From Cellulomonas wangsupingiae (lineage in GTDB: Bacteria; Actinomycetota; Actinomycetes; Actinomycetales; Cellulomonadaceae): a DNA stretch of 64,000 bases. Positions 13,487 to 63,106 of this stretch are shown in pieces. Numbering within the stretch: position 1 is the first letter of the stretch; each line of letters starts with the position of its first letter. The stretch covers positions 1,240,001-1,304,000 of the forward strand of contig NZ_CP101989.1 in the NCBI RefSeq assembly GCF_024508275.1. Reading direction: 5' to 3'. The notes below the pieces were generated by a model. That model saw only the letters and a list, made by a program, of their open reading frames with translations. It searched no databases and was not told the DNA's origin. Position numbers and translations under genes: made by a program.

Positions 13487-13495
13487 CCGACGAGC

Positions 13496-13511
13496 GTATC
13501 ACCGGTGATAC
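13496..13511. promoter_or_regulatory. 16-bp palindromic operator of the toxin-antitoxin pair
   Basis: gtatcacc/ggtgatac is a perfect palindrome located 10 bp before the antitoxin start and probably overlapping its promoter. Antitoxins of the Phd class bind such palindromes to repress their own operon; assignment is by position. Confidence 0.65.
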
Positions 13512-13537
13512 AAGACGGTCCGAGCGGCATGCGCAGC

Positions 13538-13599: not shown

Positions 13600-13775
13600 C
13601 CGGCCACGCGCCTGCGCGCCCGGGTCGCGCCGCTCGCGTTGCGGACCCGCCCGTGCGGGTGTTGCGTGTGGTCAACGGGACGCGACGACGGGTTCCCCGA
13701 GCCCGTCCCGCGTCCGGTGCAGGTCCAGGTGCGCCGGGTCCTCGGCGCAGCTGACGCCGACCGCAGGGGGCAGCC
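13600..13775. other. Non-coding stretch before the second sugar operon
   Basis: No convincing coding region, palindrome or terminator was seen here. It presumably carries the promoter of the downstream sugar operon; an AGGGGG ribosome binding site lies just before the ATG at 13776. Confidence 0.4.
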
Positions 13776-15017: not shown

Positions 15018-15038
15018 TCCGGGACGAAGGAGTCCGCC

Positions 15039-15983
15039 ATGGCCACCGCCGCCGCGCCGACCCCGGCGCACGTCGCCCCACCGCCCGAACCTCCCGACGC
15101 ACCCCGCCCCCTGCGCCCGCCCTCGCGCGTGCCGCGCGCGTTCTGGTGGATGGTCCTGCCGGCGGTCGCGATCTTCTTCGTGTTCCACACGCTGCCGGTG
15201 CTGCAGGGGATCTTCTTCAGCTTCACCGACTACGCCGGGTACGGCACCTGGCAGTTCGTGGGGCTGCGCAACTACCTCAACCTGTTCGGCAACGACCGGA
15301 TCGCGCACTCGTACCTGTTCACGTTCCAGTTCGCGATCGTCGCGACGGTCCTGACCAACGCGCTCGCCCTGACGATCGCGATGGGGCTCAACGCCCGCAT
15401 CCGGCTGCAGACGACGCTGCGCGGCCTGTACTTCATCCCGAACGTGCTGGCCGTGCTGGTCGTCGGGTACGTCTTCAACTACCTGTTCTCCAACTCCCTG
15501 CCGGTGCTCGGGCAGGCGCTGGGCGTCGAGTGGCTGTCGACGTCGATCCTGGCGAACGAGGACCTCGCGTGGCTCGGCATCGTCGTCCTGGCGGTGTGGC
15601 AGGCGTGCGCGTTCAACATCATCCTGTACCTCGCCGGCCTGCAGACGATCCCGGGCGAGCTGTACGAGGCGGCGTCGCTCGACGGCGCCTCGACCTGGCG
15701 CAGGTTCCGGTCGATCACGTTCCCCCTGATCAGCGCGTTCTTCACGATCAACATGGTGCTGTCGCTGAAGAACTTCCTGCAGGTCTTCGACCACGTCATC
15801 GCGCTGACCAACGGCGGGCCGGGCACCGCGACGGAGTCGATCTCCCTGGTGATCTACCGCGGCGGCTTCCAGGGCGGGGAGTACGCGTACCAGACGGCCA
15901 ACGCCGTGGTGTACCTCGTCGTCATCATCGTGCTGTCGCTCGCGCAGCTGCGGTTCCTGCAGTCGAGGGAGGTGGAGTCCTGA
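15039..15983 (+). CDS. Sugar ABC transporter permease, MalF-like (second operon)
   Basis: A 314-residue permease with a Pro/Ala-rich cytoplasmic N-terminus of about 35 residues, six membrane spans (first FWWMVLPAVAIFFVFHTL) and the EAA loop EAASLDGASTWRRFR. ATG at 15039 follows GACGAAGGAG. Its TGA overlaps the ATG of the next permease (TGATG). It forms the transmembrane channel with the MalG-like partner; the ATPase is not encoded in the window. Confidence 0.92.
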   Translation: MATAAAPTPAHVAPPPEPPDAPRPLRPPSRVPRAFWWMVLPAVAIFFVFHTLPVLQGIFFSFTDYAGYGTWQFVGLRNYLNLFGNDRIAHSYLFTFQFAIVATVLTNALALTIAMGLNARIRLQTTLRGLYFIPNVLAVLVVGYVFNYLFSNSLPVLGQALGVEWLSTSILANEDLAWLGIVVLAVWQACAFNIILYLAGLQTIPGELYEAASLDGASTWRRFRSITFPLISAFFTINMVLSLKNFLQVFDHVIALTNGGPGTATESISLVIYRGGFQGGEYAYQTANAVVYLVVIIVLSLAQLRFLQSREVES

Positions 15984-16882
15984 TGTCCGACACCGTGCTG
16001 CGGCGCAAGGTGACCGGGACGCCCTCGCGCAGCGGGCGCCGCCTGCGCCGCCGCGACCTGGCGGAGGGGAAGGTCAGCTGGCCGCTGACGATCCTGCTCG
16101 TGCTGGGGTCGCTCACCGTCCTGGTCCCGTTGTACTTCACGGTCGTCACGGCGCTGAAGACCCCGGCCCAGCTCGGCGGCGCCGGGTTCGGCGTCCCGGA
16201 GAGCTGGACGTGGTCGAACTTCGCGGACGCGTGGCGCCTGACCAACTTCCCGCAGGCGGCGGGCAACAGCCTGATGCTCACCGTCGGTGCGCTCGTCCTG
16301 ACGCTGCTGACGAACTCGCTCGTGTCCTACGCGATCGCCCGGCAGATGGCCCACCACAAGGTCTTCAAGGGTCTGTACTTCTACTTCGTGTCGGCGCTGT
16401 TCGTGCCGTTCCCGATCATCATGCTGCCCGTGGTGAAGCTGACCGCGCAGCTCGGCCTCGACAACCAGATCGGCCTGGTCCTGCTGTACACGGTGTACGG
16501 GCTGGCGTTCAACATCTTCGTGTTCGTCGCGTACATCAAGTCCATCCCCCTCGAGCTCGAGGAGGCGGCGCGCATCGACGGGGCGTCGACGTGGGCCGTG
16601 TTCTGGCGGATCGTGTTCCCGCTGCTGGCGCCGATGAACGCGACGGTCGCGATCCTCACGGTCATCTGGGTGTGGAACGACTTCATGCTGCCCCTGGTGA
16701 TCCTCAGCCAGCGCGACGACCTGACGCTGCCCCTGACGCAGTACGTCTTCCAGAGCCAGTTCAACACCAACTACACCGTCGCGTTCGCCTCCTACCTCAT
16801 GCAGATGGCACCCCTGCTGCTGGTGTACGTCGTGGCGCAGCGCTGGGTCATCTCGGGCGTCACCCGCGGCGCGATCAAGTGA
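15983..16882 (+). CDS. Sugar ABC transporter permease, MalG-like (second operon)
   Basis: A 299-residue permease with a basic N-terminus (SGRRLRRRD), six hydrophobic segments and the EAA loop EEAARIDGASTWAVFW. The frame is open far upstream, but the ATG at 15983, sharing one base with the stop of the MalF-like gene, is the natural start because the upstream part only shadows that gene in another frame. It is the second membrane subunit of the importer whose other parts are encoded immediately upstream. Confidence 0.93.
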   Translation: MSDTVLRRKVTGTPSRSGRRLRRRDLAEGKVSWPLTILLVLGSLTVLVPLYFTVVTALKTPAQLGGAGFGVPESWTWSNFADAWRLTNFPQAAGNSLMLTVGALVLTLLTNSLVSYAIARQMAHHKVFKGLYFYFVSALFVPFPIIMLPVVKLTAQLGLDNQIGLVLLYTVYGLAFNIFVFVAYIKSIPLELEEAARIDGASTWAVFWRIVFPLLAPMNATVAILTVIWVWNDFMLPLVILSQRDDLTLPLTQYVFQSQFNTNYTVAFASYLMQMAPLLLVYVVAQRWVISGVTRGAIK

Positions 16883-16982
16883 CGGGTCCGCCCGACCTGC
16901 ACCGCGGACCGGCGACGCGCGCGACGTGCGACCCATGGCTGGTCGTGCGACGGTCGAAGGCCCCGGACGAGGAGCAGCGCTC

Positions 16983-18731
16983 ATGACCTTCACCGTCGAC
17001 GACGCCCCCTGGTGGACCGGAGCGGTCGTCTACCAGATCTACCCGCGGTCCTTCCAGGACTCCGACGGTGATGGCATCGGTGACCTGCGCGGCGTGCTGC
17101 AGCGCGTCGACCACCTCGCGGATCTCGGGGTGGACGTCGTGTGGTTCTCCCCGGTCTACCGCAGCCCGCAGGACGACAACGGGTACGACATCAGCGACTA
17201 CCAGGACGTCGACCCGCTGTTCGGGACGCTCGAGGACCTCGACGAGGTGATCGACGCGCTGCACGAGCGCGGCATCAAGGTCGTCATGGACCTGGTCGTC
17301 AACCACACGAGCGACGAGCACCCGTGGTTCGTCGAGTCCCGGTCGTCCACGGACAACCCGAAGCGCGACTGGTACTGGTGGCGGCCCGCCCGCCCGGGCA
17401 TGGCCCCGGGCACCCCCGGCGCCGAGCCGACCAACTGGGCGTCGTTCTTCTCCGGGCCGACCTGGGAGTACGACGAGGCGACGGGCGAGTACTACCTGCA
17501 CCTGTTCAGCCGCAAGCAGCCGGACCTCAACTGGGAGAACCCGGAGGTGCGCCAGGCCGTCTTCGCGATGATGCGCTGGTGGCTGGACCGGGGGATCGAC
17601 GGCTTCCGCATGGACGTCATCAACCTCATCTCCAAGGCGGTGGGTCCGGACGGGTCGCTGGCCGACGGACCGGCCACGACGGGCGCCCTGGGCGACGGGT
17701 CCGGTCAGTACATGCACGGCCCGCGGCTGCACGAGTACCTGCAGGAGATGCACCGGGAGGTCTTCGACGGCCGCCGCGACGGGCTGCTGCTGGTCGGTGA
17801 GACGCCGGGCGCCACCGTCGAGGACGGTGCGCTGTTCACCGATCCGAGGCGGCGCGAGCTCGACATGGTGTTCACGTTCGAGCACGTCGGGCTCGACCAC
17901 GGCCCCGGCGGCAAGTACGACCCCAGGCCGCTGGACCTGCGCGACCTCAAGGCCGTGCTGGGGCGCTGGCAGGCGGGGCTCGCCGACGTCGGCTGGAACG
18001 CGCTGTACTGGGACAACCACGACCAGCCGCGCATCGTGTCGCGCTTCGGCGACGACGGCGAGTACCGCCGGGAGTCGGCGACGATGCTGGCCACCGTCCT
18101 GCACCTGCACCGCGGCACGCCGTACGTCTACCAGGGCGAGGAGCTCGGGATGACGAACGCGCACCTGCGCTCGTTCGACGACTACCGCGACATCGAGGCG
18201 CTGCGCCACGTCGAGGAGACGCGTGCGCTCGGGTACGTGAGCGACGACCGGATCCTGGCCGGACTGGCCGCGATGAGCCGCGACAACGCACGCACCCCCG
18301 TGCACTGGGACGCCTCCTCGAACGCCGGGTTCACCACGGGCGAGCCGTGGCTGCCGGTCAACCCGAACCACCGGCACGTCAACGCCGAGGCGGAGCGCGC
18401 CGACCCGTCGTCGGTCTACCACCACTACCGCCGGCTGATCGCGCTGCGGCACGAGGACGCGACGGTCCGGCTCGGTGACTTCACGATGCTGCTGCCGGGG
18501 CACCGCCACGTGTACGCGTTCACGCGCGAGCTCGACGGGGACGCCCTGCTGGTCCTGGGGAACTTTTCGGGGGACGAGCAGCAGGTGGACGTCGACGCGG
18601 TCTGGGACGGGGCCGAGGTGGTGCTGGGCAACGTGCCCGACCCCGCCGTGCCCCGCGACGGAGTCGTGCGGCTGTCCCCGTGGGAGGGCGTGGTCCTGCG
18701 CCGGGTCGTGGGTGCCGCCACGGGCGGGTGA
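16983..18731 (+). CDS. GH13 alpha-glucosidase / oligo-1,6-glucosidase
   Basis: A 582-residue cytoplasmic family GH13 enzyme (no signal peptide). The barrel begins VVYQIYPRSFQDSDGDGIGD, and the conserved regions are present: DLVVNHTSDEH, nucleophile Asp211 in GFRMDVIN, acid/base Glu273 in LLVGETPG and stabiliser Asp347 in NHDQPR. The QPDLNWENP segment is typical of exo-acting alpha-glucosidases. ATG at 16983 follows GAGGAGC; a longer reading from 16926 lacks a ribosome binding site. Last gene of the sugar ABC operon, it should hydrolyse imported alpha-glucosides. The exact linkage (1,4 or 1,6) is not certain. Confidence 0.93.
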   Translation: MTFTVDDAPWWTGAVVYQIYPRSFQDSDGDGIGDLRGVLQRVDHLADLGVDVVWFSPVYRSPQDDNGYDISDYQDVDPLFGTLEDLDEVIDALHERGIKVVMDLVVNHTSDEHPWFVESRSSTDNPKRDWYWWRPARPGMAPGTPGAEPTNWASFFSGPTWEYDEATGEYYLHLFSRKQPDLNWENPEVRQAVFAMMRWWLDRGIDGFRMDVINLISKAVGPDGSLADGPATTGALGDGSGQYMHGPRLHEYLQEMHREVFDGRRDGLLLVGETPGATVEDGALFTDPRRRELDMVFTFEHVGLDHGPGGKYDPRPLDLRDLKAVLGRWQAGLADVGWNALYWDNHDQPRIVSRFGDDGEYRRESATMLATVLHLHRGTPYVYQGEELGMTNAHLRSFDDYRDIEALRHVEETRALGYVSDDRILAGLAAMSRDNARTPVHWDASSNAGFTTGEPWLPVNPNHRHVNAEAERADPSSVYHHYRRLIALRHEDATVRLGDFTMLLPGHRHVYAFTRELDGDALLVLGNFSGDEQQVDVDAVWDGAEVVLGNVPDPAVPRDGVVRLSPWEGVVLRRVVGAATGG

Positions 18732-51141: not shown

Positions 51142-52155
51142 TCAGACGGACTCGCGCACCGTGAGCGTCGTCGGCAGCACCACGTGCTGCGGTGCGGCGC
51201 CGGGGTCGCGCAGCAGGTCGAGCACGAGCTCCGCCGCCCGGGCCCCCAGCTCGCGCAGCGGCTGGCGCACCGACGTCAGCGGCGGCTCGCACGTCTCGGC
51301 CACCACGGTGTCGTCGAACCCGACGACCGACACGTCGTCAGGCACCCGGCGGCCGCCGGCCTCGAGCACCCGCAGCGCACCCAGCGCCATGAGGTCCGAG
51401 CCGGCGAAGAGCCCGTCGACGCCCGGGTCGCGCCGCAGCACGGATGCCGCGGCCGAGGCTCCCGACGACATCGAGAACGACCCGTGCGCCACGGGGCCCG
51501 GTGCCACGCCCCACGCGGCGAGCTCGTCGCGGAACCCCGCCGCGCGCGCGTCGGAAGGGGCGTACCCGGCGGGTCCCGCGATCATCGCCAGGCGGCGCCG
51601 GCCGGCCTCCAGCAAGGCCCGCGCGGCGAGTCGTCCACCCCCGTAGTGGTCACTGTCCACCGAGGTCAGGGCGTCGTCCATCGCGGCCGTCGGGCGTCCG
51701 ACGAACACCACGGGCACGGGCAGGTCGCCCAGCTCCGCGAAGAGCGGCTCGGACTCGCGCTGCAGCACCACGACCGCGGCGTCGACGTGGCCGGCGGCGA
51801 GGTAGCCGAGCAGGGGCGTGCGGTCGCGGCCGTCGTCCAGCAGCAGCACCGGCTGCACGGACCGCGCGAACAGCACGGCGGTCGCCCCGCGCAGCGGTGC
51901 GCCCACGAAGGGTCCGCCCTGCCCCTCCAGCTCGCTGCTCGGTGCGACGAGCGCGACCGAGCCCGTCGCGCCGCTGCGCAGCGCACGCGCCGCGGGGTGG
52001 GCGCGGTAGTCGAGCTCGGCCGCCGCCGCGCGCACCCGCCGGACGAGGTCGGCGGCGACGTTCGCCTGCCCGGCGAGCGCCCGCGAGGCGGTCGCGCGCG
52101 ACACGCCCGCCGCGCGTGCGACGTCGAGCAGCGTGGGACGCGCCGACGGGCTCAT
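51142..52155 (-). CDS. LacI-family transcriptional regulator
   Basis: A 337-residue LacI/GalR repressor: helix-turn-helix PTLLDVARAAGVSRATASRALAG with hinge helix DYRAHPAARALRSG, then a sugar-binding core (LLEAGRRRLAMIAGPAGYAPSD, VDGLFAGSDLMALGALRVL) ending SVVGFDDTVVAE and LTSVRQPLRELG. ATG at 52155 is chosen because the helix-turn-helix follows at once; an open frame to 52269 would run through the operator. It lies between the ThuA/oxidoreductase operon, read in the same direction, and the divergent GH127 gene. Palindromes sharing a core flank it on both sides. Confidence 0.92.
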   Translation of the reverse strand: MSPSARPTLLDVARAAGVSRATASRALAGQANVAADLVRRVRAAAAELDYRAHPAARALRSGATGSVALVAPSSELEGQGGPFVGAPLRGATAVLFARSVQPVLLLDDGRDRTPLLGYLAAGHVDAAVVVLQRESEPLFAELGDLPVPVVFVGRPTAAMDDALTSVDSDHYGGGRLAARALLEAGRRRLAMIAGPAGYAPSDARAAGFRDELAAWGVAPGPVAHGSFSMSSGASAAASVLRRDPGVDGLFAGSDLMALGALRVLEAGGRRVPDDVSVVGFDDTVVAETCEPPLTSVRQPLRELGARAAELVLDLLRDPGAAPQHVVLPTTLTVRESV

Positions 52156-52194
52156 GGGGGCATGGTGCCACGGCACCAGGCCGCCGGGGCAGGC

Positions 52195-52208
52195 GGAGAT
52201 CGATCTCC
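52195..52208. promoter_or_regulatory. 14-bp palindromic operator between LacI and GH127 genes
   Basis: ggagatc/gatctcc, a perfect palindrome 40 bp from the LacI start and 43 bp from the GH127 start. It contains the same 12-bp core GAGATCGATCTC as the palindrome at 51087-51106, so one regulator may control both units. Confidence 0.72.
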
Positions 52209-52250
52209 CCGGCACGTGACGCACCGCCTCCGGGATGTCAGGGTGGTGCC

Positions 52251-54539
52251 GTGAGCAGCGCCGCGGCACCGTCCGCCCCCCGTCCGTCCCGTGCCGTCAC
52301 TCCCTTCGGGCCGGCCGACGTGCGGCTGACCGACGGGCCCTTCGCGGCGGCGCAGCGCACCGCCCGGACCTACCTGCTCGGTCTCGACACCGACAGGCTG
52401 CTCGCGCCCTTCCGCCGGGAGGCGGGCCTGCCGTCGCGCGCCGAGCCGTACGGCTCGTGGGAGTCGATCGGGCTCGACGGGCACATCGGGGGGCACGCGC
52501 TGTCCGCGGCGGCGCTGCAGTGGGCGGCGACCGCTGACGAGCGCGCCGCGGCGATGGCCCGCCGCCTCGTCGACGGGCTCGTGGAGTGCCAGGACGCGCT
52601 CGGCACCGGGTACGTCGGGGGCGTGCCCCGCGGCGTCGCGCTGTGGGAGTCCGTGGCGTCGGGCGGCGCCGAGGCCGGCACGTTCGACCTCGGGGGCGCC
52701 TGGGTGCCGTGGTACAACGTCCACAAGACCTACGCGGGGTTGGTCGACGCCGCCCGGTACGCACCGGCCGACGTCGCCGCGCGCGCCCGGGGTGCCGCGG
52801 TCCGGCTCGGGGACTGGGGCGTCGCGCTCTGCGAGCGGCTCGACGACGCCGCCTTCGCGCGCATGCTGCGCACCGAGTTCGGCGGCATGTGCGAGGCGTA
52901 CGGCGACCTCGCCGAGCTGACGGGTGACCCGCGCTACGCGACGCTCGCCCGGCGGTTCGCCGACGAGACCCTGCTCGCGCCGCTGCGCGACGGCCGCGAC
53001 GCGCTCGACGGCCTGCACGCCAACACGCAGGTCGCCAAGGTCGTCGGCTGGCCCGCGATCGGCGAGACCGACGCCGCGGCGGCCTTCGTCGACGCCGTCC
53101 TGACCCGCCGCACGCTCGTGTTCGGCGGGAACTCGGTCTCCGAGCACTTCACGCCCGACGCCGCGGCGCACGTCACGCACCGCGAGGGCCCCGAGTCCTG
53201 CAACACCGCGAACATGCTGGAGGTCGAGCGGCGCCTCTACGCGCTCACCGGCGACGTCGGGCTCCTGGACGCAGCCGAGCGCCAGCTCGTCAACCACGTG
53301 CTGTCCGCGCAGCACCCCGACGGCGGGTTCGTGTACTTCACCCCGGCGCGACCCGGGCACTACCGCGTGTACTCGACGCGGGACGCCTGCATGTGGTGCT
53401 GCGTCGGCACGGCCCTGGAGACGTACGCGCGGCTCGGTGAGCTCGCGTACGCGCACACCGGTGGCGACCTGCTGGTGAACCTGCCGGTGCCCTCGACGCT
53501 GCACTGGGCGCAGCGCGGCGTCCGGGCGCGCCTGGCCTCGACGTACCCGACGGCGGCGCCCGTGACCGACGTCGCGCTCACCGTGGACGTCGACGCCCCG
53601 ACGGAGCTCGCCGTCCACGTGCGGCGCCCGGCCTGGGCCCTCGAGCGCGTGGAGCTCGCCGTCGACGGCGTGCCCGTGCCGCCGGTGGTCGAGCGCGAGG
53701 GCTACGCGACCGTGCGCCGGGCGTGGCGCGGCGGGGAGACGGTGACGTGGCGGCTCGTCGCCGGGCCCGCGGCCGAGCGGCTGCCGGGCGACGACGGCTG
53801 GGTCGCCCTGCGCTGGGGCCCGGTCGCGCTCGCGGCACGCGGCGACGCGGACGACCTGGTGGGCCTGCGCGCCGACGACGCGCGCATGGGTCACGTCGCG
53901 CACGGCCCGCTGCGCCCGCTGGCGGCCACGCCCGTGCTCGTCGGCGCGGACGCGGACCTGGCGGCGGCGCTGCGCCCGGCGGACGACGGCACGTTCGTCC
54001 TCGACCGCGGTGACGGCGAGACGCTGGTGCTCGAACCGCTGCACACGCTGCACGACGCGCGGTACACGCTGTACTTCCCGGCGGTCCCCGACGCCCACGC
54101 CGTCGCCGGGCGGCGCGCCGCGCTCGCGGCCGTCGACGACGAGCAGCTGGGCCTGGCCGCCCGCACCGTCGACGCGGTCGCGTGCGGCGAGCAGCAGCCC
54201 GAGACCGACCACCGCTACACCGGCGCCGACACCTGGACGGGCGCGGCCGACGGCCGGCACTGGCGGGCGACCCGCGACCGCTTCTCCTACCGGCTCGCGG
54301 ACCCGCAGGCCCGCGGCGCGGTGCTGCGCGTGACGTACCTGGCCGACCGCGGGCACGCCCGGGTCGTCGTCGACGGCACGGAGGTGGGTGTCGTCGAGGT
54401 CACGCAGCCGGCGCCGGGTCTCCGCGTGCTGGACCTGCCCGTGCCGCCCGGTCACCACGAGGTCTCCCTCGTCGCCGGACCGACCGGCGTCCCGACGCCC
54501 CCGGTCGTCGCCGTCCACCTCCTGACGGACCCCGCCTGA
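52251..54539 (+). CDS. GH127-family beta-L-arabinofuranosidase
   Basis: A 762-residue intracellular glycoside hydrolase (no signal peptide) of the GH127/DUF1680 group. The zinc-cysteine active site of HypBA1-type enzymes is recognisable: Glu315 and Cys317 in GPESCNTANMLE, and Cys383-Cys384 in DACMWCCVG. The N-terminal alpha/alpha barrel runs to about residue 430, followed by beta-sandwich domains; the last 120 residues look like a separate beta-domain (DUF6805-like). GTG at 52251 is chosen; the open frame upstream to 51444 is shadow of the LacI gene. GH146 or a related arabinan-active family is an alternative. Divergent from its probable LacI regulator. Confidence 0.88.
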   Translation: MSSAAAPSAPRPSRAVTPFGPADVRLTDGPFAAAQRTARTYLLGLDTDRLLAPFRREAGLPSRAEPYGSWESIGLDGHIGGHALSAAALQWAATADERAAAMARRLVDGLVECQDALGTGYVGGVPRGVALWESVASGGAEAGTFDLGGAWVPWYNVHKTYAGLVDAARYAPADVAARARGAAVRLGDWGVALCERLDDAAFARMLRTEFGGMCEAYGDLAELTGDPRYATLARRFADETLLAPLRDGRDALDGLHANTQVAKVVGWPAIGETDAAAAFVDAVLTRRTLVFGGNSVSEHFTPDAAAHVTHREGPESCNTANMLEVERRLYALTGDVGLLDAAERQLVNHVLSAQHPDGGFVYFTPARPGHYRVYSTRDACMWCCVGTALETYARLGELAYAHTGGDLLVNLPVPSTLHWAQRGVRARLASTYPTAAPVTDVALTVDVDAPTELAVHVRRPAWALERVELAVDGVPVPPVVEREGYATVRRAWRGGETVTWRLVAGPAAERLPGDDGWVALRWGPVALAARGDADDLVGLRADDARMGHVAHGPLRPLAATPVLVGADADLAAALRPADDGTFVLDRGDGETLVLEPLHTLHDARYTLYFPAVPDAHAVAGRRAALAAVDDEQLGLAARTVDAVACGEQQPETDHRYTGADTWTGAADGRHWRATRDRFSYRLADPQARGAVLRVTYLADRGHARVVVDGTEVGVVEVTQPAPGLRVLDLPVPPGHHEVSLVAGPTGVPTPPVVAVHLLTDPA

Positions 54540-54542
54540 TCC

Positions 54543-54560
54543 GCCCGCAGGGGTGCGGGC
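54543..54560 (+). terminator. Hairpin after the GH127 gene
   Basis: A 7-bp stem (gcccgca / tgcgggc) with a four-G loop begins five bases after the stop. No T tract. A weak terminator candidate. Confidence 0.4.
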
Positions 54561-54713
54561 CCGTGCCGACCGTCGTCGGCGTGACCCCGCGGGTCCGCCT
54601 CTGCCGGAGGCGTGAGCGCCTGCCACCGGACGTCGCGCCGCCTCGCAGGCCCGCGACTTCGCGCGCAGACTGGGGCACGACCCGCACCCGCTCGACGGTC
54701 CTGGCGGCCTCAC

Positions 54714-56123
54714 ATGTCTGATGACGACGGCACCATCCCGGTCAACGGCGTCGATGCCGCGTCCGGCGGTTACGTGGCCGACCCGCCCTCGGTGAGCGCG
54801 ATCGCCTCGCTCGCGCTCGACGGGCCCGTGCCTGCGCCGGACGCCGCGCAGGCGCGTGCGCGCGTACGCGACCGGTCCGAGGCGGTGCTCGGGGTGCGCG
54901 AGGGCGTCGACCCGCACGACCTCGCCCAGGCGGGCTGGGGGGTCGTCCTCGCCCCCGACCTCGACCCCGCCGTCGTCGAGGCGCTGCGGCCGCTGCTCGA
55001 GCTGCGGCGCGAGCAGGCCACGGCGGTCGACGAGCGCCGCTACCGCGAGCTGCACGTGCGGCCCGGGGAGTCCAAGGGTGAGCTGCTCGCGCGCCACGGC
55101 GTGGGCCCGGGTCCCGCGGATCCCGAGCGCGTCCCGTACTACCTGCTGCTCGTGGGGAGCCCTCGGTCCATCCCGTTCCGCCTCCAGCAGCAGCTCGCGG
55201 TCACCTACGCGGTGGGGCGGCTGGACCTGCGCACCCCCGCGGACCACGGCCGGTACGCGCGCGCGGCCGTCGACGCGGAGACGTCCGCCCCGGCCGGTCG
55301 CCCGACCGCGCACCTGTTCGCGACGCATCACCCCGACGACCCTGCGACCGAGCTGAGCACCGAGGCGCTGGTCGGGCCGCTCGAGCAGCAGCTCGGCTCG
55401 CGCCTGCCCGCCTGGGAGGTCACCGTCCACGGCGGTGAGGCCGCCACGGCGCCGACCCTGCGAGGGCTGCTCGGGGCGTCGACGCCGCCGAGACTGCTCG
55501 TGACGGCGACGCACGGTGTGGGTTTCCCACCCGGCGACCCACGACGGGTCGGCCACCAGGGTGCGCTCCTCTGCCATGGCTGGCCCGGGCCGCGGGCAGG
55601 CGCCCCGGTCGCACGGGAGCACTACGTGACCGCCGAGGACCTCGCCGACGACGACGACCTGAGCGGAACGGTCGCGTTCCACGTCGCGTGCTACGGCGCC
55701 GGGTCCCCGACGACCGGACGGGACGCGTCGTTCAGCGCCGCGCTCGTCCAACGCATGCTGTCGCTGCCGCGGGGGCCCGCGCTCGCGGTCGTGGGGCACG
55801 TCGACAGGGCCTGGGGCTGGTCGTTCGAGTGGCCGGCGGCCGGGCCCCAGATCGAAGCCGTCGCCAGCAGCCTGCTGGCGGTCTGCGCGGGCCGGCCCGT
55901 CGGGCACGCTCTCGACCACCTCCACCACCGGTACGCCGAGCTCGCCACCGAGCTCGTCGACCTGCTCGGGTCGAGACGCGAGGGCAGACGCGTCAGCGAC
56001 GCGGCCATCGCCCACGCGTGGACGGCCATGACCGACGCCCGCGACTACGCCCTGCACGGGGACCCCGCGGTGCGTCTGCGAGCCCCCGCGTATCAGGACG
56101 GTGCCGGTCACGCTCCTCCCTGA
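54714..56123 (+). CDS. Clan CD (caspase/gingipain-like) peptidase, first gene of the conflict operon
   Basis: A 469-residue protein I cannot assign to a named family but that shows the clan CD peptidase pattern: a His-Gly at His267 in LLVTATHGVGF and a Cys-x-Gly at Cys326 in FHVACYGAGSP. Upstream, YYLLLVGSPRSIPFRLQQQL followed by YAVGRLDL resembles the region before the catalytic domain in C25 (gingipain) and related peptidases. The C-terminus after residue 400 is helical. No signal peptide, so it is cytoplasmic. ATG at 54714 is used although its ribosome binding site is poor; a reading from 54612 adds an Arg-rich tail. First of four same-strand genes; the CHAT/SIR2 gene starts 24 bp later. 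Confidence 0.8.
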   Translation: MSDDDGTIPVNGVDAASGGYVADPPSVSAIASLALDGPVPAPDAAQARARVRDRSEAVLGVREGVDPHDLAQAGWGVVLAPDLDPAVVEALRPLLELRREQATAVDERRYRELHVRPGESKGELLARHGVGPGPADPERVPYYLLLVGSPRSIPFRLQQQLAVTYAVGRLDLRTPADHGRYARAAVDAETSAPAGRPTAHLFATHHPDDPATELSTEALVGPLEQQLGSRLPAWEVTVHGGEAATAPTLRGLLGASTPPRLLVTATHGVGFPPGDPRRVGHQGALLCHGWPGPRAGAPVAREHYVTAEDLADDDDLSGTVAFHVACYGAGSPTTGRDASFSAALVQRMLSLPRGPALAVVGHVDRAWGWSFEWPAAGPQIEAVASSLLAVCAGRPVGHALDHLHHRYAELATELVDLLGSRREGRRVSDAAIAHAWTAMTDARDYALHGDPAVRLRAPAYQDGAGHAPP

Positions 56124-56147
56124 CGTCGAGGGACCACGGAGGACCGT

Positions 56148-58292
56148 ATGACCACGGAGTACGCCGAGCTGGAGATCGGGCTGCACCACCGCGACGACGC
56201 GAGCTGGGCCGTCGAGCTGCGGTTCGACCAGCCCGGCTCGGACGTGGAGGTCCTGCTGCAGGACCGCGCCGTCATCACCGACCTCGACCTGCGCAAGCTG
56301 CGGGAGCTCGAGGACCAGCCCGACGAGTACGGCCGCGCGCTCGGGCAGGCCGTCTTCGGGACGGCGGCCGTGCGCGACGCGTACGGCCAGGCGTACGCGG
56401 CGGCGCTGCACCACCGCCGCCGCCTGCGGGTCCGGTTCTTCATCGGTCAGAGCGCCCCGGAGCTGCACGCCCTGCGGTGGGAGACCCTCGCGGACCCGGC
56501 GGACGGGTCCCGCCTGACGACCGACGAGAACGTCCTCTTCTCGCGCTACCTCAACAGCTTCGACTGGCGGCGGTCCGCCGGCCCGGCGTCGTGGACCACG
56601 CTGCGCGCCCTCGTCCTCGTCGCCGACCCCCACGACCTGGCGGACTGGGACGTCGGGCGCCCGCTCGCACGCGTCGACGTGGCCGGCGAGATCGCGCGTG
56701 CCCGCGCCGCGCTCGGCGAGATCACCGTCACCGCGCTTCCCGGGGCCGGGCCCCCCACCGTGTCCGGCCTCGTCGAGGAGCTGCGCGCCGGCGTGGACGT
56801 GCTGTACCTCGTGTGCCACGGCTACCGCTCGGGCGGCGCCGCCCGTCTGCTCCTCGAGTCCGAGGACGGCACCGCCGACAGCGTCGACGCGTCCGAGCTC
56901 GTCGAACGCATCCGCGACCTGCCCCAGCCACCGCGTCTCGTCGTGCTGGCCTCGTGCCAGAGCGCCGGCCCCGGCGTGCACCGCCACTCCGACGACGGCG
57001 GGGTCCTGGCCTGCCTGGGCCCGCAGCTCGCTCAGGCAGGTGTGCCGGCGGTGCTCGCGATGCAGGGCGACGTGTCGTTGGCGACCGTCGAGACGTTCAT
57101 GCCCGTCTTCTTCCGTGCGCTGCGGGTCGACGGCCAGATCGACCGGGCCATGGCCGTCGCCCGTGGTGAGGTCCGGGACCGGGCCGACTGGTGGGTCCCG
57201 ACGCTCTTCATGCGGATCACGAGCGGACGCCTGTGGTACTCGCACGGACCCGCCGACGAGGGTCCGTTCGAGCAGTGGGTCTCGCTGCTCGACCAGGTCG
57301 CGCGCAACAAGTGCACCCCCCTGCTGGGCCCCGGCCTCAGTGACTCCCTCCTCGGGGTCCGTCGGGACATGGCCGGGGCGCTGTCGCGCACGTACCGCTT
57401 CCCGCTCGCGCCCCACCGCGCCGAGGAGATGCCCCACGTCGCGCAGTACCTGTCGGTGGTGCACAACCCGGACTTCCCTCGCAGCACGCTGCTGAAGTGG
57501 CTGAGCCACTCGATCATCGGCCGGTACGGGACGCAGCTCCCGGACCATCTCGCGAGCAGGAGGTTCGACCAGGTCGACGAGGCCGATCTCGCGCGCCGGG
57601 TCAACGACCAGATCTGCGCGGCGTGGCGGCTCCGGCACCAGGCGGACCGCGACGACCCCGTCGCGGCGCTCGCACGCGTGCCGTTCCCGGTGTACGTCAC
57701 GACGCAGATGTCCGACCTCCTGTCCGACGCGCTGCGCGACGCCGGACGCGCGCCGGTCGTCGAGCTGTGCCGCTGGCGCGACGACACCGAGGACGACCCG
57801 ATCGACTGGCCACCGTCGATCTTCGACACGGAGCCCGACTACGAGCCGACACGTGAGCGTCCCCTCGTCTTCCACCTCTTCGGGCACCTGAGCGTGCCGG
57901 AGTCCGTGGTGCTCACCGAGGACGACTACTTCGACTTCCTCATCGGCGTCAGCGCCGACGCCCGGGCCATCCGGATCCCCGAGGTCGTGCGGGCCACCCT
58001 GACCAACTGCGGGCTGCTCCTCCTGGGCTTCCGCCCCGACGAGTGGGACTTCCGTGTGCTCTTCCGCAGCATCATGCAGCTGCCTGGTGCCAAGCGGCGC
58101 CGCAAGTACACGAACGTCTCCGTGCAGATCGACCCGGAGGAGGGCAACGCGACCCAGGCGCAGAAGGCGCGCAAGTACCTGGAGAAGTACTTCGGCGAGA
58201 GCAAGATGACGGTCTTCTGGGGCAGCCCCGACGACTTCCTGCGCGACCTCGGCCGGCTCTGGGACCACCGCGCGGCCCAGGAGCCGACATGA
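56148..58292 (+). CDS. CHAT peptidase fused to a SIR2-like domain
   Basis: A 714-residue two-module protein. The CHAT (caspase HetF-associated) domain spans about residues 110-370, with His224 in LYLVCHGYRSGG and Cys270 in VVLASCQSAGPG forming the dyad. A SIR2-like domain follows (about 375-690): CTPLLGPGLSDSLLG, VYVTTQMSDLLSDAL, VFHLFGHLSVPESVVLTEDDY and LLLLGFRPDEWDF. Canonical SIR2 positions look altered (TTQ where TTN is usual, LFG where LHG is usual), so NADase activity is doubtful. ATG after GGAGGACC. Its stop overlaps the STAND gene (ATGA). CHAT plus SIR2-like plus STAND is typical of bacterial conflict systems. Confidence 0.87.
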   Translation: MTTEYAELEIGLHHRDDASWAVELRFDQPGSDVEVLLQDRAVITDLDLRKLRELEDQPDEYGRALGQAVFGTAAVRDAYGQAYAAALHHRRRLRVRFFIGQSAPELHALRWETLADPADGSRLTTDENVLFSRYLNSFDWRRSAGPASWTTLRALVLVADPHDLADWDVGRPLARVDVAGEIARARAALGEITVTALPGAGPPTVSGLVEELRAGVDVLYLVCHGYRSGGAARLLLESEDGTADSVDASELVERIRDLPQPPRLVVLASCQSAGPGVHRHSDDGGVLACLGPQLAQAGVPAVLAMQGDVSLATVETFMPVFFRALRVDGQIDRAMAVARGEVRDRADWWVPTLFMRITSGRLWYSHGPADEGPFEQWVSLLDQVARNKCTPLLGPGLSDSLLGVRRDMAGALSRTYRFPLAPHRAEEMPHVAQYLSVVHNPDFPRSTLLKWLSHSIIGRYGTQLPDHLASRRFDQVDEADLARRVNDQICAAWRLRHQADRDDPVAALARVPFPVYVTTQMSDLLSDALRDAGRAPVVELCRWRDDTEDDPIDWPPSIFDTEPDYEPTRERPLVFHLFGHLSVPESVVLTEDDYFDFLIGVSADARAIRIPEVVRATLTNCGLLLLGFRPDEWDFRVLFRSIMQLPGAKRRRKYTNVSVQIDPEEGNATQAQKARKYLEKYFGESKMTVFWGSPDDFLRDLGRLWDHRAAQEPT

Positions 58293-61200
58293 CGACCACC
58301 GCACCGCGCAGCGAGACCGCGCGGCCGTCCCCGCTCGCCAACCCGTTCGTCGGTCCGCAGTCCATCCCCCACGGAGCCCCGATCTACGGGCGGACCCGTG
58401 AGACCACGACGCTGCTCAACCTGCTGGTCGCGGAGCGGATCGTGCTGCTGTACTCCCCGTCGGGCGCCGGCAAGACGTCCCTCGTCAACGCGGCGCTGCG
58501 CCCTGCCCTCGTCGAGGACGACTTCGAGGTGCTGCCCGTCGCGAGCGTCCGGCACGAGCCCGGTGACGGCGACCGCACGGGCCGCAACCGGTACGCCTTG
58601 AGCATCATGAGCTCGCTCGAGCAGCGACTGCCGGTGGACCAGCAGCTGGCACCCGCCGACCTCGCGGCGCTCACCCTGCACCAGTACCTGACGACGCGCA
58701 CCGACCTGGACGACCAGCCCGGGAACGAGGTCCTCGTCGTCGACCACTTCGAGGACGCGCTGCGCGTGGACCCCTTCGACCTCGACGCCAAGCGGGCGTT
58801 CTTCGCCGAGCTCGGCGAGGCCCTCGCCGACCGGCGGCTGTGGGCCCTGTTCGTGATGCGCGAGGACTACCTCGCGAGCCTCGACCCGTACCTGCGGTTG
58901 ATCCCCCTGCACTTCCAGGCGCAGTTCCGTCTCGACCTGCTGCGACCCGACAGCGCCCGGCAGGCCATCGTGCGGCCGATCGAGGCCGCCGGTGCCCACA
59001 TCGACGACGACGCCGTCACCCGGCTGCTCGGGGACCTGCGCCGGGTGAACGTGCTGCAGGGCGACGAGGTCCGGGCGACCGAGGGGCCGTACGTCGAGCC
59101 GGTCCAGCTGCAGGTCGCGTGCCACCGCCTGTGGCAGAACCTGGAACCCGGGCAGGACCGCATCAGGGTGAGCGACGTCGAGGCCACCGGCGACGTCGAC
59201 TCCGCGCTGCGGACCTACTACCGGGAGTCCGTGGCCCGGGTGTCCGAGGAGACCGGCGTGCCCGAGCGCATGGTGCGCGAGTGGTTCGAGCACGACCTCG
59301 TCACCCCCCACGGCCTGCGCACGCAGGTGACCACAGGGCCGGGCGGGACGGACCTGCTGAACCGGATGATCGCCACCCACCTGCTGCGGGCGGAGGAACG
59401 GCACGGCACCATCTGGTACGAGCTGTCCCACGACCGTCTCGTCGGTCCCGTGTCCGTCGACAACGAGCAGTGGGCGGGGGAGAACCTCAGCGCGTTCGAA
59501 CGGGACGCGCAGCTCTGGGACGCCCAGCACCGACCCGACGGCCTCCTGCTGTCCGACGACGCCCTCGCGGCCGAGGAACGGGCGGTCGACGAGGGCCGGG
59601 CGCGGCACAACGCGGTCGAGCAGGCGTTCTTCGCGCGGAGCGTCGACGCCCGCAGCGCTCGGGAGCACGAGCGGCGCTCGGTCCGTCGCACGCGCCGCGC
59701 CCTCGTCGTCGCCGTCGCCGCGCTGGTCGTCGCCGTCGCCGGCGGTGCGGCGGCCGGCCTGCTGGGGGCGACCGCGGCCGACAGGAACCGTGAGCTGGCG
59801 GCCAGCCTGATCGCCGCCGAGGGACAGCGGCTGGTCCAGGCCGACCCGGAGGCCGCGCTCATGCTGGCCACCGAGTCCCTGCGTGGTGGCGGCGGGCTGA
59901 CGCCTCCGGTGCGCGACCTGATCGCCGCGGCCGTCGTCGCCGGCCCCGTGGCGGGGCAGACGCTGGGTCCGAAGGGCATGGTCACCACGAGCCTCGGGAC
60001 GAGCCTCGACGGTCGCTGGACGGTCATCGGCGTCGCGCCCCCGACGGAGACGGACACGTCGACCGACGGCGACATCCAGGTGCTCGTCCTCGAGACCGCG
60101 ACCGGGGACACCCTCGACGGTGTCGAGGTGCCGGCCGTCCCGTCCTCCGTCGGCGTGTCCGACGACGGGCAGGTCACCTGGGTCGACGAGACCGGGGACG
60201 TGTGGTGGTGGGACCGGGAGGCAGGTGCCGCGCCACGCACGGTCGACCTCGCACCGACCGGCCCCGCGTCGACCGACCTCTACCCGTACTCCGTCATCCC
60301 GGCGCCCGACGGGTCGAGCCTCGGGATCACGTCCGACGAGGTGGACGACGAGGGGGTGTGGACGCAGCAGATCGCCCGCTTCACCCCGGACGGGACGCCG
60401 ATCGGCGACCCGTACCCCCTCGCCGGGGACGGCAACAGCACGTGGTCGTGGGACGGCGACCTGTGGGTCACGAGTGCTCCGGGAGGTGTCACGCTCGGGA
60501 GGTTCAGCGACAGCTCGTTCGCGCCCCTCCCGATCCCCCCGCCCGTCGCCGACACGTTCACGGTGGAGACCTCGCGCGACGGCAGCCGCGTGCTGGCGTT
60601 CGACGACACCGGCCGGGTGCTCCTGTGGGACGCCGCGACGCGGGACCTGGTGTGGGACTGGGCCGCATCGGCGAGCATCGCGACCGTCAGCGCCGACGGC
60701 TCCCTGCTGGCCGTACGCCGGCAGCACGAGGGCCTCGAGGTCTACGACGTCGCGACCCGCGCGCTGGTCGGCGGGCTCACCCTCTCCGGCCGTGAGACAG
60801 CCAGCTCGCTCTGGTTCCTCCCGGACGACCGGCTGGCCGTCACCGGCCTGTCCGGCCGCGCCACGATCCACGACTGGCGCTCGGAGGGCCGGGTGCTGCA
60901 GCCACCGGTCGGTGTCGCGGCGACGTCCGACCGCATCGCTGTCAGCCGTGCGGACGGGACGAGCATCTGGAGCGCCGACGGCAGGCTGACCGCTCGCCTC
61001 CCCACCAGCAAGGGCACGAGCGGCGTCGCGTTCCTCGACGACGAGGTCGTCGTCGTCACCCGTGACCCGGTCGGTGAGACCGGAGCCGCGATCGAGTTCT
61101 GGTCGGTCGACGACGGGGCGGGGGTGCTGCAGGAGACGGTGGACCTGCCCGGCATGGCGGGCGTCGACGCGGTCGCGACGACCGGTGACGGCCAGGCTCT

Positions 61201-61828
61201 GGCGGTGGCCTACGAGTCTACCGTCGACGTCGTCGCGCCCCAGAGCTGCACGCTCGACGCGGAGACGGGTGACGTCATCGCGCTGGACTTCACCGAGCAG
61301 GGCACCCTGGTCGTCTCGCGAAACGATGGCGTCACGGAGTACGACGTGACCTCACCGCAGTGCCTCGAGATCGCCGAGCCGGCGTCCGCGCCTGACTGGG
61401 ACATCCACGACACGGCGGTCGATCCTGCCTCGGGCACGCTGGCGGTCGTCGACCTGTGGGGAGGCGTCCGGCTCCACGTCGGTGGGTTCGAGCAGGAGGT
61501 GATCGCCCCGGCACCTCCCGGCGCCACCGTCGCGGAGACCGCGCTCCTCCCCGGTGGCGACTCCCTCGTGCTCATGTACGGCGACGGGTCGGTCAGCGTC
61601 TACGACGTGACGCGACGCGAGCTGTCCCCGCTGCGCGTGGAACCAGGGACCGTCACGCACCTCGAGACCGCGCAGGACACCCTGGTCATGGCGATCGAAG
61701 GCCGGGCCGCCCCCGTGACGATCCCCCTGACGGACGAGTCGCTCCGCGAGCTGGCCCGGGAGCGCCCCGACCACGCCCTCACCGACGTCGAGTGCGTCCA
61801 CCTGCTCGGCGACCTGTGTCGCCGCTGA
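58289..61828 (+). CDS. Membrane-anchored nSTAND NTPase with C-terminal beta-propeller
   Basis: A 1179-residue protein. N-terminal nSTAND1-type P-loop NTPase: Walker A SPSGAGKTSLV with Lys62 (first glycine of GxxxxGK replaced by Ser), Walker B VLVVDHFEDA with Asp152, then the WFEHDLVTPHGLRTQV and ELSHDRLVGPV segments usual in this family. A basic stretch (ERRSVRRTRR) precedes one membrane helix at about residues 471-494, followed by a helical linker (AEGQRLVQADPEAALMLATESL) and about 600 residues of WD40-like blades. The propeller is on the far side of the helix from the NTPase, so it may lie outside the cell. ATG at 58289 overlaps the CHAT/SIR2 stop. Likely sensor and switch of the operon. 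Confidence 0.87.
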   Translation: MTTTAPRSETARPSPLANPFVGPQSIPHGAPIYGRTRETTTLLNLLVAERIVLLYSPSGAGKTSLVNAALRPALVEDDFEVLPVASVRHEPGDGDRTGRNRYALSIMSSLEQRLPVDQQLAPADLAALTLHQYLTTRTDLDDQPGNEVLVVDHFEDALRVDPFDLDAKRAFFAELGEALADRRLWALFVMREDYLASLDPYLRLIPLHFQAQFRLDLLRPDSARQAIVRPIEAAGAHIDDDAVTRLLGDLRRVNVLQGDEVRATEGPYVEPVQLQVACHRLWQNLEPGQDRIRVSDVEATGDVDSALRTYYRESVARVSEETGVPERMVREWFEHDLVTPHGLRTQVTTGPGGTDLLNRMIATHLLRAEERHGTIWYELSHDRLVGPVSVDNEQWAGENLSAFERDAQLWDAQHRPDGLLLSDDALAAEERAVDEGRARHNAVEQAFFARSVDARSAREHERRSVRRTRRALVVAVAALVVAVAGGAAAGLLGATAADRNRELAASLIAAEGQRLVQADPEAALMLATESLRGGGGLTPPVRDLIAAAVVAGPVAGQTLGPKGMVTTSLGTSLDGRWTVIGVAPPTETDTSTDGDIQVLVLETATGDTLDGVEVPAVPSSVGVSDDGQVTWVDETGDVWWWDREAGAAPRTVDLAPTGPASTDLYPYSVIPAPDGSSLGITSDEVDDEGVWTQQIARFTPDGTPIGDPYPLAGDGNSTWSWDGDLWVTSAPGGVTLGRFSDSSFAPLPIPPPVADTFTVETSRDGSRVLAFDDTGRVLLWDAATRDLVWDWAASASIATVSADGSLLAVRRQHEGLEVYDVATRALVGGLTLSGRETASSLWFLPDDRLAVTGLSGRATIHDWRSEGRVLQPPVGVAATSDRIAVSRADGTSIWSADGRLTARLPTSKGTSGVAFLDDEVVVVTRDPVGETGAAIEFWSVDDGAGVLQETVDLPGMAGVDAVATTGDGQALAVAYESTVDVVAPQSCTLDAETGDVIALDFTEQGTLVVSRNDGVTEYDVTSPQCLEIAEPASAPDWDIHDTAVDPASGTLAVVDLWGGVRLHVGGFEQEVIAPAPPGATVAETALLPGGDSLVLMYGDGSVSVYDVTRRELSPLRVEPGTVTHLETAQDTLVMAIEGRAAPVTIPLTDESLRELARERPDHALTDVECVHLLGDLCRR

Positions 61829-61845
61829 CCGGAAGGCAGACCGCC

Positions 61846-62181
61846 ATGCCACGGACCGACCGCCCCGCCTACCCGCTCGCCGAGGTGCTCTGGCAGCTCG
61901 GCGAGGAGCTGCGTGCCGTCGCGGCCCGCAGCGAGGAGCACGAGCGCGCACCCGTCGTGGAGGTCACGACGGCGAGCGCGCGGCTGACGGTCACCGTGAC
62001 CCGCGACGCCAAGGGCGGACTGTCGTTCGGCGTCCTGGGCGTCGGGGCCGACCTCGGCGTCGGCGGCTCACGCGAGACGACGACCGAGCTGACCGTCGAC
62101 CTGAAGGTCGCCCAGCTGCCGGGGGCCGACGCCGCGCCACGGTCCGCCGTCTCGTTCTCGCCGCCCGTGTCCCGCTGGTGA
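61846..62181 (+). CDS. Trypco2-domain small protein
   Basis: A 111-residue protein matching the trypsin-co-occurring domain 2 (Trypco2) pattern: helix PLAEVLWQLGEELRAVAARS, then beta strands VVEVTTASARLTVTVTRDAK, a Gly-rich FGVLGVGADLGVGGS and a final TTELTVDLKVAQL. Trypco domains are reported to accompany trypsin or other peptidases in NTP-dependent conflict systems and are thought to act as adaptors. ATG at 61846, 17 bp after the STAND gene with GGAAGG upstream. Fourth and last gene of the operon; the gene downstream is convergent. Confidence 0.78.
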   Translation: MPRTDRPAYPLAEVLWQLGEELRAVAARSEEHERAPVVEVTTASARLTVTVTRDAKGGLSFGVLGVGADLGVGGSRETTTELTVDLKVAQLPGADAAPRSAVSFSPPVSRW

Positions 62182-62200: not shown

Positions 62201-63106
62201 CTACCCGCCGGCCGCGGGCGGGAGGACCGCGTCGCCCACCGCGACCAGGCGGGAGCGCAGCGCGTTCGACCGTGCGGCGGTGTCCCGCTGGCGGCGGACG
62301 TACTCGGCCTTGCCCTCGGCGGTCTCGATCGCCACCGGTTCCAGCCCGTACGACGTGACGTCGTAAGGGCTGGCCTGCATGTCTGTCGTCCGGATCTCGC
62401 GCGCGAGGTCGAAGCAGTCGAGCAGCAGGCCGCCGGGGACGAGGGGGCCGAGCTTGAGCGCCCACTTGTACAGGTCCATGTTCGCGTGCAGGCAGCCGGG
62501 CTGCTCCATCGCCGCCTGCGTCGCGCGCGTCGGCGTCAGGGTGTTGCGCCCCACCGCCTCGGGGGTGAAGAACCGGAACGCGTCGACGTGCGTGCACCGG
62601 ATGCGGTGGGACTCGACGACGGCGTCGGTGCCGGCCTCGCCCAGCCGCAGCGGCAGCGCGTGGCGGTGGTCGCCCGCGGGCTCGCGGTAGACCATCGCCC
62701 ACTCGTGCAGCCCGAAGCAGCCGGTGGCCGCGGGCCGCGAGGCGGTCGCGGCGAGCAGCTCGACGACGAACCGCACGGCGTCCCCGCGTGCGGCCAGGAA
62801 CGCGTCGACGTCGAGGCGCACGGTGCCGTCGCCGTCCGTGCGGTACCACCGCCAGGCCGCGTGCGGGGCCGGCCCGTCCGGGCCGGGGGCCAGCGCGACG
62901 CCCGCACCCGGGTGCCAGCGGCGCAGCTGCGCGGGGGAGGCCGGGTAGTACTCGAACAGGAAGTCCTCGACGACGTGCTTCTCGTGCCGGGACCGCCGCG
63001 CGCGGTGCCCGGCGGTCGCCGCGTCGGCGCGCTCGGCGTGGGCGGCGGCACGCGCGGTCCACGTGGCCGCGTCGAGCACGGTCGAGGCGGAGGCGGTCGC
63101 GGTCAC
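62201..63106 (-). CDS. Conserved protein, commonly (mis)named 3-methyladenine DNA glycosylase
   Basis: A 301-residue cytoplasmic protein widely conserved in actinobacteria. Characteristic segments are RHEKHVVEDFLFEYYPASPAQLRRWHPG, CFGLHEWAMVYR, RCTHVDAFRFFTPEA, PGCLHANMDLYKWALKLGP and DMQASPYDVTSYGLEPVAIE. Many databases label it 3-methyladenine DNA glycosylase, but I see no helix-hairpin-helix or AAG/MPG motif that would support this. Function should be treated as unknown. GTG at 63106 is chosen; the open frame to 63250 is Arg-rich. Convergent with the conflict operon. Confidence 0.8.
   Translation of the reverse strand: MTATASASTVLDAATWTARAAAHAERADAATAGHRARRSRHEKHVVEDFLFEYYPASPAQLRRWHPGAGVALAPGPDGPAPHAAWRWYRTDGDGTVRLDVDAFLAARGDAVRFVVELLAATASRPAATGCFGLHEWAMVYREPAGDHRHALPLRLGEAGTDAVVESHRIRCTHVDAFRFFTPEAVGRNTLTPTRATQAAMEQPGCLHANMDLYKWALKLGPLVPGGLLLDCFDLAREIRTTDMQASPYDVTSYGLEPVAIETAEGKAEYVRRQRDTAARSNALRSRLVAVGDAVLPPAAGG

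Follow-up and report, generated by a model that had tools for sequence, protein, structure and literature searches.

What might a bacterial locus do that joins two different cysteine peptidases, a SIR2-like domain, a STAND NTPase and a Trypco2 protein? This question is raised by a cassette of four plus-strand genes in Cellulomonas wangsupingiae, located at positions 54714-62181 of a stretch of 64,000 nucleotides (the window; positions 1240001-1304000 of the single 4.118 Mb contig of genome G000), with intergenic gaps of 24, -4 and 17 bp. A preceding interpretation made from the letters of the window, here called the sequence-only reading, had described the genes as one operon that forms a nucleoside triphosphate (NTP)-dependent conflict system. 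All four of its components were found: a C25-like (gingipain-like) peptidase (gene 1), a CHAT-SIR2 fusion (gene 2), an nSTAND1-propeller protein (gene 3) and a Trypco2 protein (gene 4), and a codon-usage gene caller returned exactly these four genes. The results below support the conflict system interpretation, and defense appears to be the likeliest purpose of the cassette. Missing from the sequence-only reading were a transmembrane helix in gene 3, an alpha/beta-hydrolase-like partner gene, the empty insertion site, and the spread of the C25-like/CHAT combination across phyla.

Two peptidases with intact catalytic dyads

The two Cys-His peptidases proposed earlier were both borne out, as their dyads are invariant in the aligned homologs. 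Gene 1 has the fold of the gingipain catalytic domain, and its His-Gly and Ala-Cys catalytic motifs are kept in 120/120 homologs and at 12/12 loci (at least 4,917 C25-like homologs were scored). Its protein scores 15.6 with the Pfam C25 family (PF01364), below the gathering score of 23, and is therefore called C25-like and not C25. The G808 protein gave no match to this family, and the proteins from G303, Nostoc, Sinorhizobium and Planktothrix pass the cut-off. Gene 1 resembles the gingipains in its fold and HG/AC dyad, but differs from them in this sub-cut-off score, in its linkage to CHAT and STAND genes, and in the absence of a hydrophobic N terminus, a hydropathy scan having found no hydrophobic stretch anywhere in the protein. 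The CHAT domain of gene 2 reaches 96.4 bits against a Pfam cut-off of 24, and its His/Cys dyad is intact in all 121 sequences compared (at least 2,517 CHAT-SIR2 homologs were scored).

A SIR2 half without NADase residues

The second half of gene 2 has a SIR2 fold, that of ThsA, as had been expected, but the idea that it provides an extra effector did not survive, because the catalytic residues are gone. In a profile alignment to solved SIR2 NADases, Gln520 aligns with the catalytic Asn of ThsA, and the catalytic His corresponds to Phe578. Two of the aligned structure chains carry Ala, 8bto at the place of the catalytic Asn and 9v12 at that of the catalytic His, and we read these as inactivating mutants. 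Among the 121 CHAT-SIR2 sequences, the place of the catalytic His is taken by Phe in 100, Leu in 19, Tyr in 1 and His in 1, Asn occurs at its place in 17, and the Asp of TTNxD is kept in 2. With eight loci included, none of 129 sequences has both the catalytic Asn and His, and gene 2 itself has neither this pair nor an Asn in the HG place, either of which would mark a SIR2 NADase. The only sequence with His, P0123 from Geodermatophilus obscurus, has Val at the Asn place; this protein of 863 aa is a CHAT-SIR2-TIR fusion. Since the NADase residues are lost, the SIR2 half is probably an adaptor.

Fifteen other genomes of the class sample match gene 2 in the SIR2 part alone, and these stand-alone relatives have TTN in 13 cases, HLHG in 11, and both in 10. 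At ten stand-alone loci (8 of the 15 class relatives and 2 plasmid matches), an nSTAND1-type gene adjoins SIR2 in nine, three of which are partial gene calls; the exception is Ensifer locus L073, where no gene call adjoins the SIR2 match. In the one locus tested with Pfam, the partner is an nSTAND1-TPR protein and the neighbor an NB-ARC-TPR protein. The actinomycete unit at L064-L072 consists of a stand-alone SIR2 and an nSTAND1-type gene, mostly with a neighbor of ~800 aa, and the SIR2 of the Pfam-tested locus partly resembles the PADLOC ThsA models. The simplest history would be that a SIR2 effector of an nSTAND1 protein was fused to CHAT, lost catalysis, and stayed as the link to the NTPase.

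A predicted membrane helix and a fast-diverging propeller in gene 3

The STAND NTPase assignment of gene 3 holds, with a Pfam nSTAND1 match of 103 bits and a Walker A Lys62 that is kept in 8/8 aligned proteins. After the NTPase, residues 471-489 form a hydrophobic helix with a mean hydropathy of 2.54, and the hydropathy scan detected a helix at the equivalent place in all 7 full-length gene 3 proteins. In these seven proteins, the helix is preceded by 6-8 Lys/Arg in 15 residues and followed by 1-4 in 15, and by the positive-inside rule the propeller is therefore predicted to lie outside the cytoplasm. The same scan found a helix after the NTPase in two Nostoc CHAT-nSTAND1-WD40 proteins and near the start of a split WD40 protein of Planktothrix, and in none of three SIR2-partner nSTAND1 proteins.

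Between the window and six relatives, identity is 23-28% in the propeller half and 46-49% in the NTPase half, and among the genomes G808, G801 and G809 these values are 72-78% and 96-98%, respectively. The ratio of nonsynonymous to synonymous substitution rates (dN/dS) among these three was 0.33-0.38 for the propeller, compared to 0.05-0.10 for the NTPase, 0.05-0.07 for CHAT-SIR2 and 0.10-0.14 for the C25-like gene.

Recurrence and insertion of the cassette

As the sequence-only reading required, the gene set recurs in other genomes. Full-length CHAT-SIR2 is present in 8 of 81 genus genomes, and the C25-like gene in 7, all of them among these eight carriers and within ~5 kb of CHAT-SIR2. In the eighth carrier, G013, the contig ends inside the nSTAND gene, too early to reveal a C25-like gene. 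Every genus genome with the C25-like gene at a threshold of 1e-10 also carries CHAT-SIR2. The gene order in G018, G008, G808, G801 and G809 is CHAT-SIR2, nSTAND1-propeller, and a convergent C25-like gene, and G822 has the same order but with an alpha/beta-hydrolase-like gene in between. Within the genus, a C25-like gene that comes first and is co-directional occurs only in the window, and this arrangement (C25-like, CHAT-SIR2, nSTAND1) returns in G303, which belongs to another order of the class. The claim of one operon does not extend to most relatives, in which the C25-like gene is convergent. A search of the phage collection gave one partial CHAT match. A second, different conflict-like locus was seen in G018 (L054, G018:C2:1018000-1037900, positions 9288-18639); here, a divergent C25-like peptidase adjoins genes for a subtilase, a TPR/FHIPEP-like protein and two CHAT proteins.

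In the window, the cassette is flanked by a GH127 gene on the left and by a widely matched gene on the right. In all 10 relatives with a GH127 match of 79-85%, none of which has the cassette, less than 4 kb separates these flanks: seven have a spacing of 66-360 bp, and three have one of 1.4-3.9 kb that holds other sequence, compared to 7.7 kb in the C. wangsupingiae genome. Because the flanks adjoin in relatives without the cassette, we regard the cassette as an insertion. In the single-contig genomes G808 and G008, the distance between the cassette and the right-flank gene is ~180 kb and 1.5 Mb, and the GH127 match is likewise remote; the cassette therefore occupies differing genomic places. 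The GH127-flanked site is filled in L081, L082 and L083 by an alpha/beta-hydrolase, a weakly hydrolase-like gene and an unassigned gene, and in L082 a fragment of the right-flank gene is present twice. That the cassette is a compositional island was rejected, since its G+C content is not distinct.

The wider family on plasmids

Core parts of the cassette recur in distant bacteria. Eight plasmid records have a C25-like match, and six were covered (all except Embleya NBC_00896 and a second Bradyrhizobium record). In each of these six loci, from Nostoc, Planktothrix, Sinorhizobium, Embleya, Gemmobacter and Bradyrhizobium and thus from three phyla, the C25-like gene is co-located with CHAT and a homologous alpha/beta-hydrolase-like gene; on the Sinorhizobium plasmid CHAT is on the opposite strand, some kilobases off. 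The hydrolase label is over the Pfam cut-off (DUF900) in Gemmobacter and Bradyrhizobium only, sub-threshold in G822, Sinorhizobium and Planktothrix, and BLAST-based in Nostoc and Embleya. The CHAT assignment is BLAST-based in Embleya, and in Nostoc it is based on the annotation, on a match to gene 2 at 31% and on a SAVED-CHAT match in PADLOC. The hydrolase-like protein of G822 is 43-46% identical to its counterparts in Nostoc, Planktothrix and Sinorhizobium, and was not found in nine other genomes searched, that of C. wangsupingiae included. The Embleya, Gemmobacter and Bradyrhizobium plasmids carry a tight operon of four genes, for an alpha/beta-hydrolase-like protein, a 450-515 aa protein, CHAT and the C25-like peptidase (L084 3727-9287, L085 3586-8993 and L086 3415-9014); the 450-515 aa protein had no Pfam match in the two cases tested.

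Trypco2 as an optional component

The Trypco2 assignment of gene 4 was upheld by a PF19631 score of 32.8 against a cut-off of 24.2, and the match was recovered again in the genome search. Trypco2 passes the cut-off in one of nine system-bearing genomes and in none of the eight others, and was rejected as a core part for this reason; we infer that it is a lineage-specific addition, possibly an optional small adaptor. Six gene 4 homologs were found, with 73-76% identity. One of these comes from a 64,399-base contig, and an 86% identical CHAT-SIR2 and a 71% identical C25-like protein are likewise on a contig of that size. Another is from Cellulomonas sp. McL0617 (4,142,206-base contig), which also has a 72% identical C25-like protein; a McL0617 CHAT-SIR2 is not among the 120 homologs listed. 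The equal contig sizes suggest that Trypco2 recurs with relatives of other cassette genes in two further genomes. There was no trypsin-like neighbor of Trypco2 among the four genes or the five other window genes scanned.

Features of the locus

The coordinates of the genes, domains and flanks are listed in Table 1. Sequence searches of the PDB gave no match for genes 1 and 3 and, for gene 2 alone, a best E value of 0.14, and profile A1 had no relevant match in the PDB. No NCBIfam family was over its cut-off in the cassette proteins. An open frame of 2050 codons on the minus strand (52152-58304) overlaps the GH127 gene and genes 1 and 2 in antisense; it was not chosen by the codon-usage caller, and we take it as an artefact of high G+C content.

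Table 1. Features of the cassette and its flanks (positions in the window)
Feature	Position	Strand	Description
Gene 1	54714..56123	+	C25-like (gingipain-like, clan CD) cysteine peptidase, 469 aa; dyad His267 and Cys326
Gene 1 His267 codon (HG motif)	55512..55514	+	Invariant in 120/120 homologs and 12/12 loci
Gene 1 Cys326 codon (AC motif)	55689..55691	+	Invariant in 120/120 homologs and 12/12 loci
Gene 2	56148..58292	+	CHAT peptidase fused to SIR2-like domain, 714 aa
CHAT domain of gene 2	56331..57182	+	Residues 62-345; His224 and Cys270 invariant in 121/121
Degenerate SIR2-like domain of gene 2	57240..58289	+	About residues 365-714; Gln520 (Asn place), Phe578 (His place)
Gene 3	58289..61828	+	nSTAND1 NTPase, transmembrane helix, beta-propeller, 1179 aa; 4 bp overlap with gene 2
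nSTAND1 NTPase of gene 3	58385..59443	+	Residues 33-385; Walker A GAGKT, Lys62
Predicted transmembrane helix of gene 3	59699..59755	+	Residues 471-489; positive charges on the NTPase side
Propeller region of gene 3	59966..61825	+	About residues 560-1179; fast-diverging, predicted extracytoplasmic
Gene 4	61846..62181	+	Trypco2 domain protein, 111 aa
Left flank, outside the system	52320..54539	+	GH127 beta-L-arabinofuranosidase gene
Right flank, outside the system	62201..63106	-	Matched at 1e-60 in 65/81 genus genomes; no Pfam match at 0.001

Proposed mechanism and alternatives

The computation shows the gene anatomy, the intact dyads, the lost SIR2 residues, the conserved helix, the co-occurrence of the genes and the empty sites. 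Based on this, the cassette would be a horizontally moving NTP-dependent conflict system, in which a membrane STAND receptor may trigger a CHAT/C25-like protease cascade, a mechanism whose chances we put at about even. The fast-evolving propeller of gene 3 is predicted to bind a threat-linked ligand outside the membrane. The signal would cross the single transmembrane helix, upon which the cytoplasmic nSTAND1 domain would bind NTP and oligomerize. The degenerate SIR2 half may then dock on the NTPase as an adaptor and gather the CHAT domains, which when clustered would become active and cleave the gingipain-like peptidase in the cytoplasm, or else be cleaved by it, in a two-step clan CD cascade. 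Host or invader proteins would be cut, leading to cell death or growth arrest. Trypco2 would be an optional adaptor, at the place where other loci have the alpha/beta-hydrolase-like gene. We hold a broader version more tentatively, and on balance doubt it, namely that the cassette belongs to an unnamed, widespread, membrane-anchored, apoptosome-like family of bacterial systems with an outside propeller, a STAND NTPase, a CHAT-then-gingipain-like cascade, and a dead sirtuin kept purely as a docking adaptor after the fused protease replaced its NADase role.

Several observations weigh against the receptor-cascade model. The helix and topology of gene 3 are hydropathy predictions only, and weaker stretches (1.61-1.85), which we do not read as helices, exceed the scan threshold elsewhere in 5/7 gene 3 proteins. 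The propeller named in the sequence-only reading is weakly supported by Pfam in the window protein, where the WD40-type matches are all sub-threshold; in Nostoc such matches are clear. Synonymous divergence (dS) in the propeller of G808, G801 and G809 is about twofold higher, and recombination or relaxed constraint may therefore account for some of the divergence seen there. Of the seven genus carriers with both genes, six have C25-like and CHAT on opposite strands, so that a shared operon is not essential, and several of the genus carriers are close relatives, so that the eight are not eight independent events. CHAT-SIR2 is also rare: its full-length form was found in 2 genomes of the 394-genome class sample (C. 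wangsupingiae and G303), and at 1e-60 only in C. wangsupingiae itself in the 396-genome phylum sample, the best 2-4 candidates having been scored per genome in these searches and in the phylum search for the C25-like gene. The latter, at 1e-20, detected C. wangsupingiae and G676; in the latter, the larger genes beside the C25-like gene, on a contig of 4,465 bases, are two of hydrolase type, and no CHAT was seen. PADLOC named no system for the cassette, and the five other window genes scanned belong to sugar metabolism, encode AMP-binding proteins or are unassigned, with no known defense genes among them. Finally, in Avs5 Asn can replace His, and a changed HG motif is compatible with a functional SIR2 fold, according to the accessible text of PMC12931631.

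An alternative that we consider unlikely is a signaling or developmental switch, in which an outside signal would lead to the cleavage of a regulator, for example an anti-sigma factor, as with Calp in type III CRISPR. The patchy distribution of full-length CHAT-SIR2 (8/81 in the genus, 2/394 in the class sample), the empty insertion sites and the fast evolution of the propeller speak against this, and among the matches of the four genes, the only one to a sigma or anti-sigma family was that of gene 3 to an NCBIfam anti-sigma model, far below threshold (12.2 bits versus 100). Improbable is also a suicide system in which the SIR2 half hydrolyzes NAD+ upon NTPase oligomerization, in the manner of Avs5 and ThsA, with the peptidases acting only as its regulators. 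The residues disfavor an active NADase, as Phe, Leu or Tyr occupies the His place in 120/121 sequences, Asn and the TTNxD Asp are kept in 17/121 and 2/121, and both catalytic residues in 0/129, and the accessible text of PMC12931631 reports that N110A, D112A, or Ala or Gln at the HG place abolish defense by Avs5. Quite improbable, in our opinion, is a toxin-type system, with the C25-like peptidase as toxin and CHAT-SIR2 and nSTAND as its restraints; the opposite orientation of gene 1 in 6/7 genus carriers would make it separately transcribable, but a mere antitoxin would not be expected to keep a CHAT dyad intact in 121/121 sequences, and the C25-like gene never occurs without CHAT-SIR2 in the genus (0 genomes at 1e-10). 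Extracytoplasmic carbohydrate or envelope sensing tied to the neighboring GH127 locus is hardly credible, since, although the cassette adjoins GH127 and LacI genes, it is largely refuted by the empty sites in ten relatives with the same neighborhood and by the distant cassettes of G808 and G008.

Relation to known systems

Like the sequence-only reading, we know of no named system with this gene set: PADLOC gives none, and we recognized no account of it in a literature search, whose coverage is thin for subscription journals and in part confined to the 15-20 top-ranked papers. SAVED-CHAT is a bacterial CHAT-to-caspase cascade that depends on CRISPR signaling, and to our knowledge the sole one. 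Unlike SAVED-CHAT (PDB 8tl0) and Craspase TPR-CHAT/Csx29, the cassette has no SAVED domain or CRISPR gene among its four genes, and is presumably activated through its STAND NTPase. With Avs5 (AVAST type 5), as described in the accessible text of PMC12931631, it shares a SIR2 fold coupled to a STAND NTPase, but it differs in having separate genes, lost SIR2 residues, a fused CHAT, a transmembrane helix with a propeller, and a second peptidase. PADLOC AVAST models were absent from the matches at E up to 1.

According to the portions of Kaur et al. 2020 (PMC7159879) consulted, NTPase-driven conflict systems pair caspase-type peptidases with alpha/beta-hydrolases, VMAP-linked caspase-superfamily peptidases always adjoin an alpha/beta-hydrolase gene, some systems have a caspase in two components, and Trypco1/2 occur beside trypsins. 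CHAT, SIR2, C25 and gingipain do not appear in the main text of that paper. The cassette differs from the VMAP MoxR-vWA ternary systems described there, as its NTPase is nSTAND1, no MoxR AAA+ or vWA domain was found by Pfam in the four cassette genes, to which this search was confined, and its Trypco2 accompanies clan CD peptidases, with no trypsin among the genes scanned. In the Canu caspase-nuclease loci, for which phage defense was tested, a caspase-type protease activates a partner proenzyme (PMC12799240, accessible text), whereas the partner in the cassette is a second peptidase, and no nuclease domain was found by Pfam in the four genes. The DGR2 locus of Thiohalocapsa combines, like the cassette, Trypco2 with a CHAT-containing protein, but there CHAT-TIR is the target of a diversity-generating retroelement, and the accessible text (PMC10907252) describes no C25-like gene.

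The kind of system is known in outline. Its seemingly new features are the pairing of a C25-like with a CHAT protease, the probable use of a dead SIR2 as an adaptor and the predicted location of the propeller outside the membrane. The predicted outside sensor would be unusual when compared with Avs5, which detects a phage protein within the cell (PMC12931631, accessible text). CHAT and gingipain-like clan CD families travel together across three phyla, and an NTPase frequently accompanies them; their association points to a conserved pair of initiator and executioner. The SIR2 domains form a series in which stand-alone forms beside nSTAND1 mostly keep their catalytic residues and CHAT-fused forms have lost them, and this series makes it directly testable whether one effector took over from another that stayed on as an adaptor.

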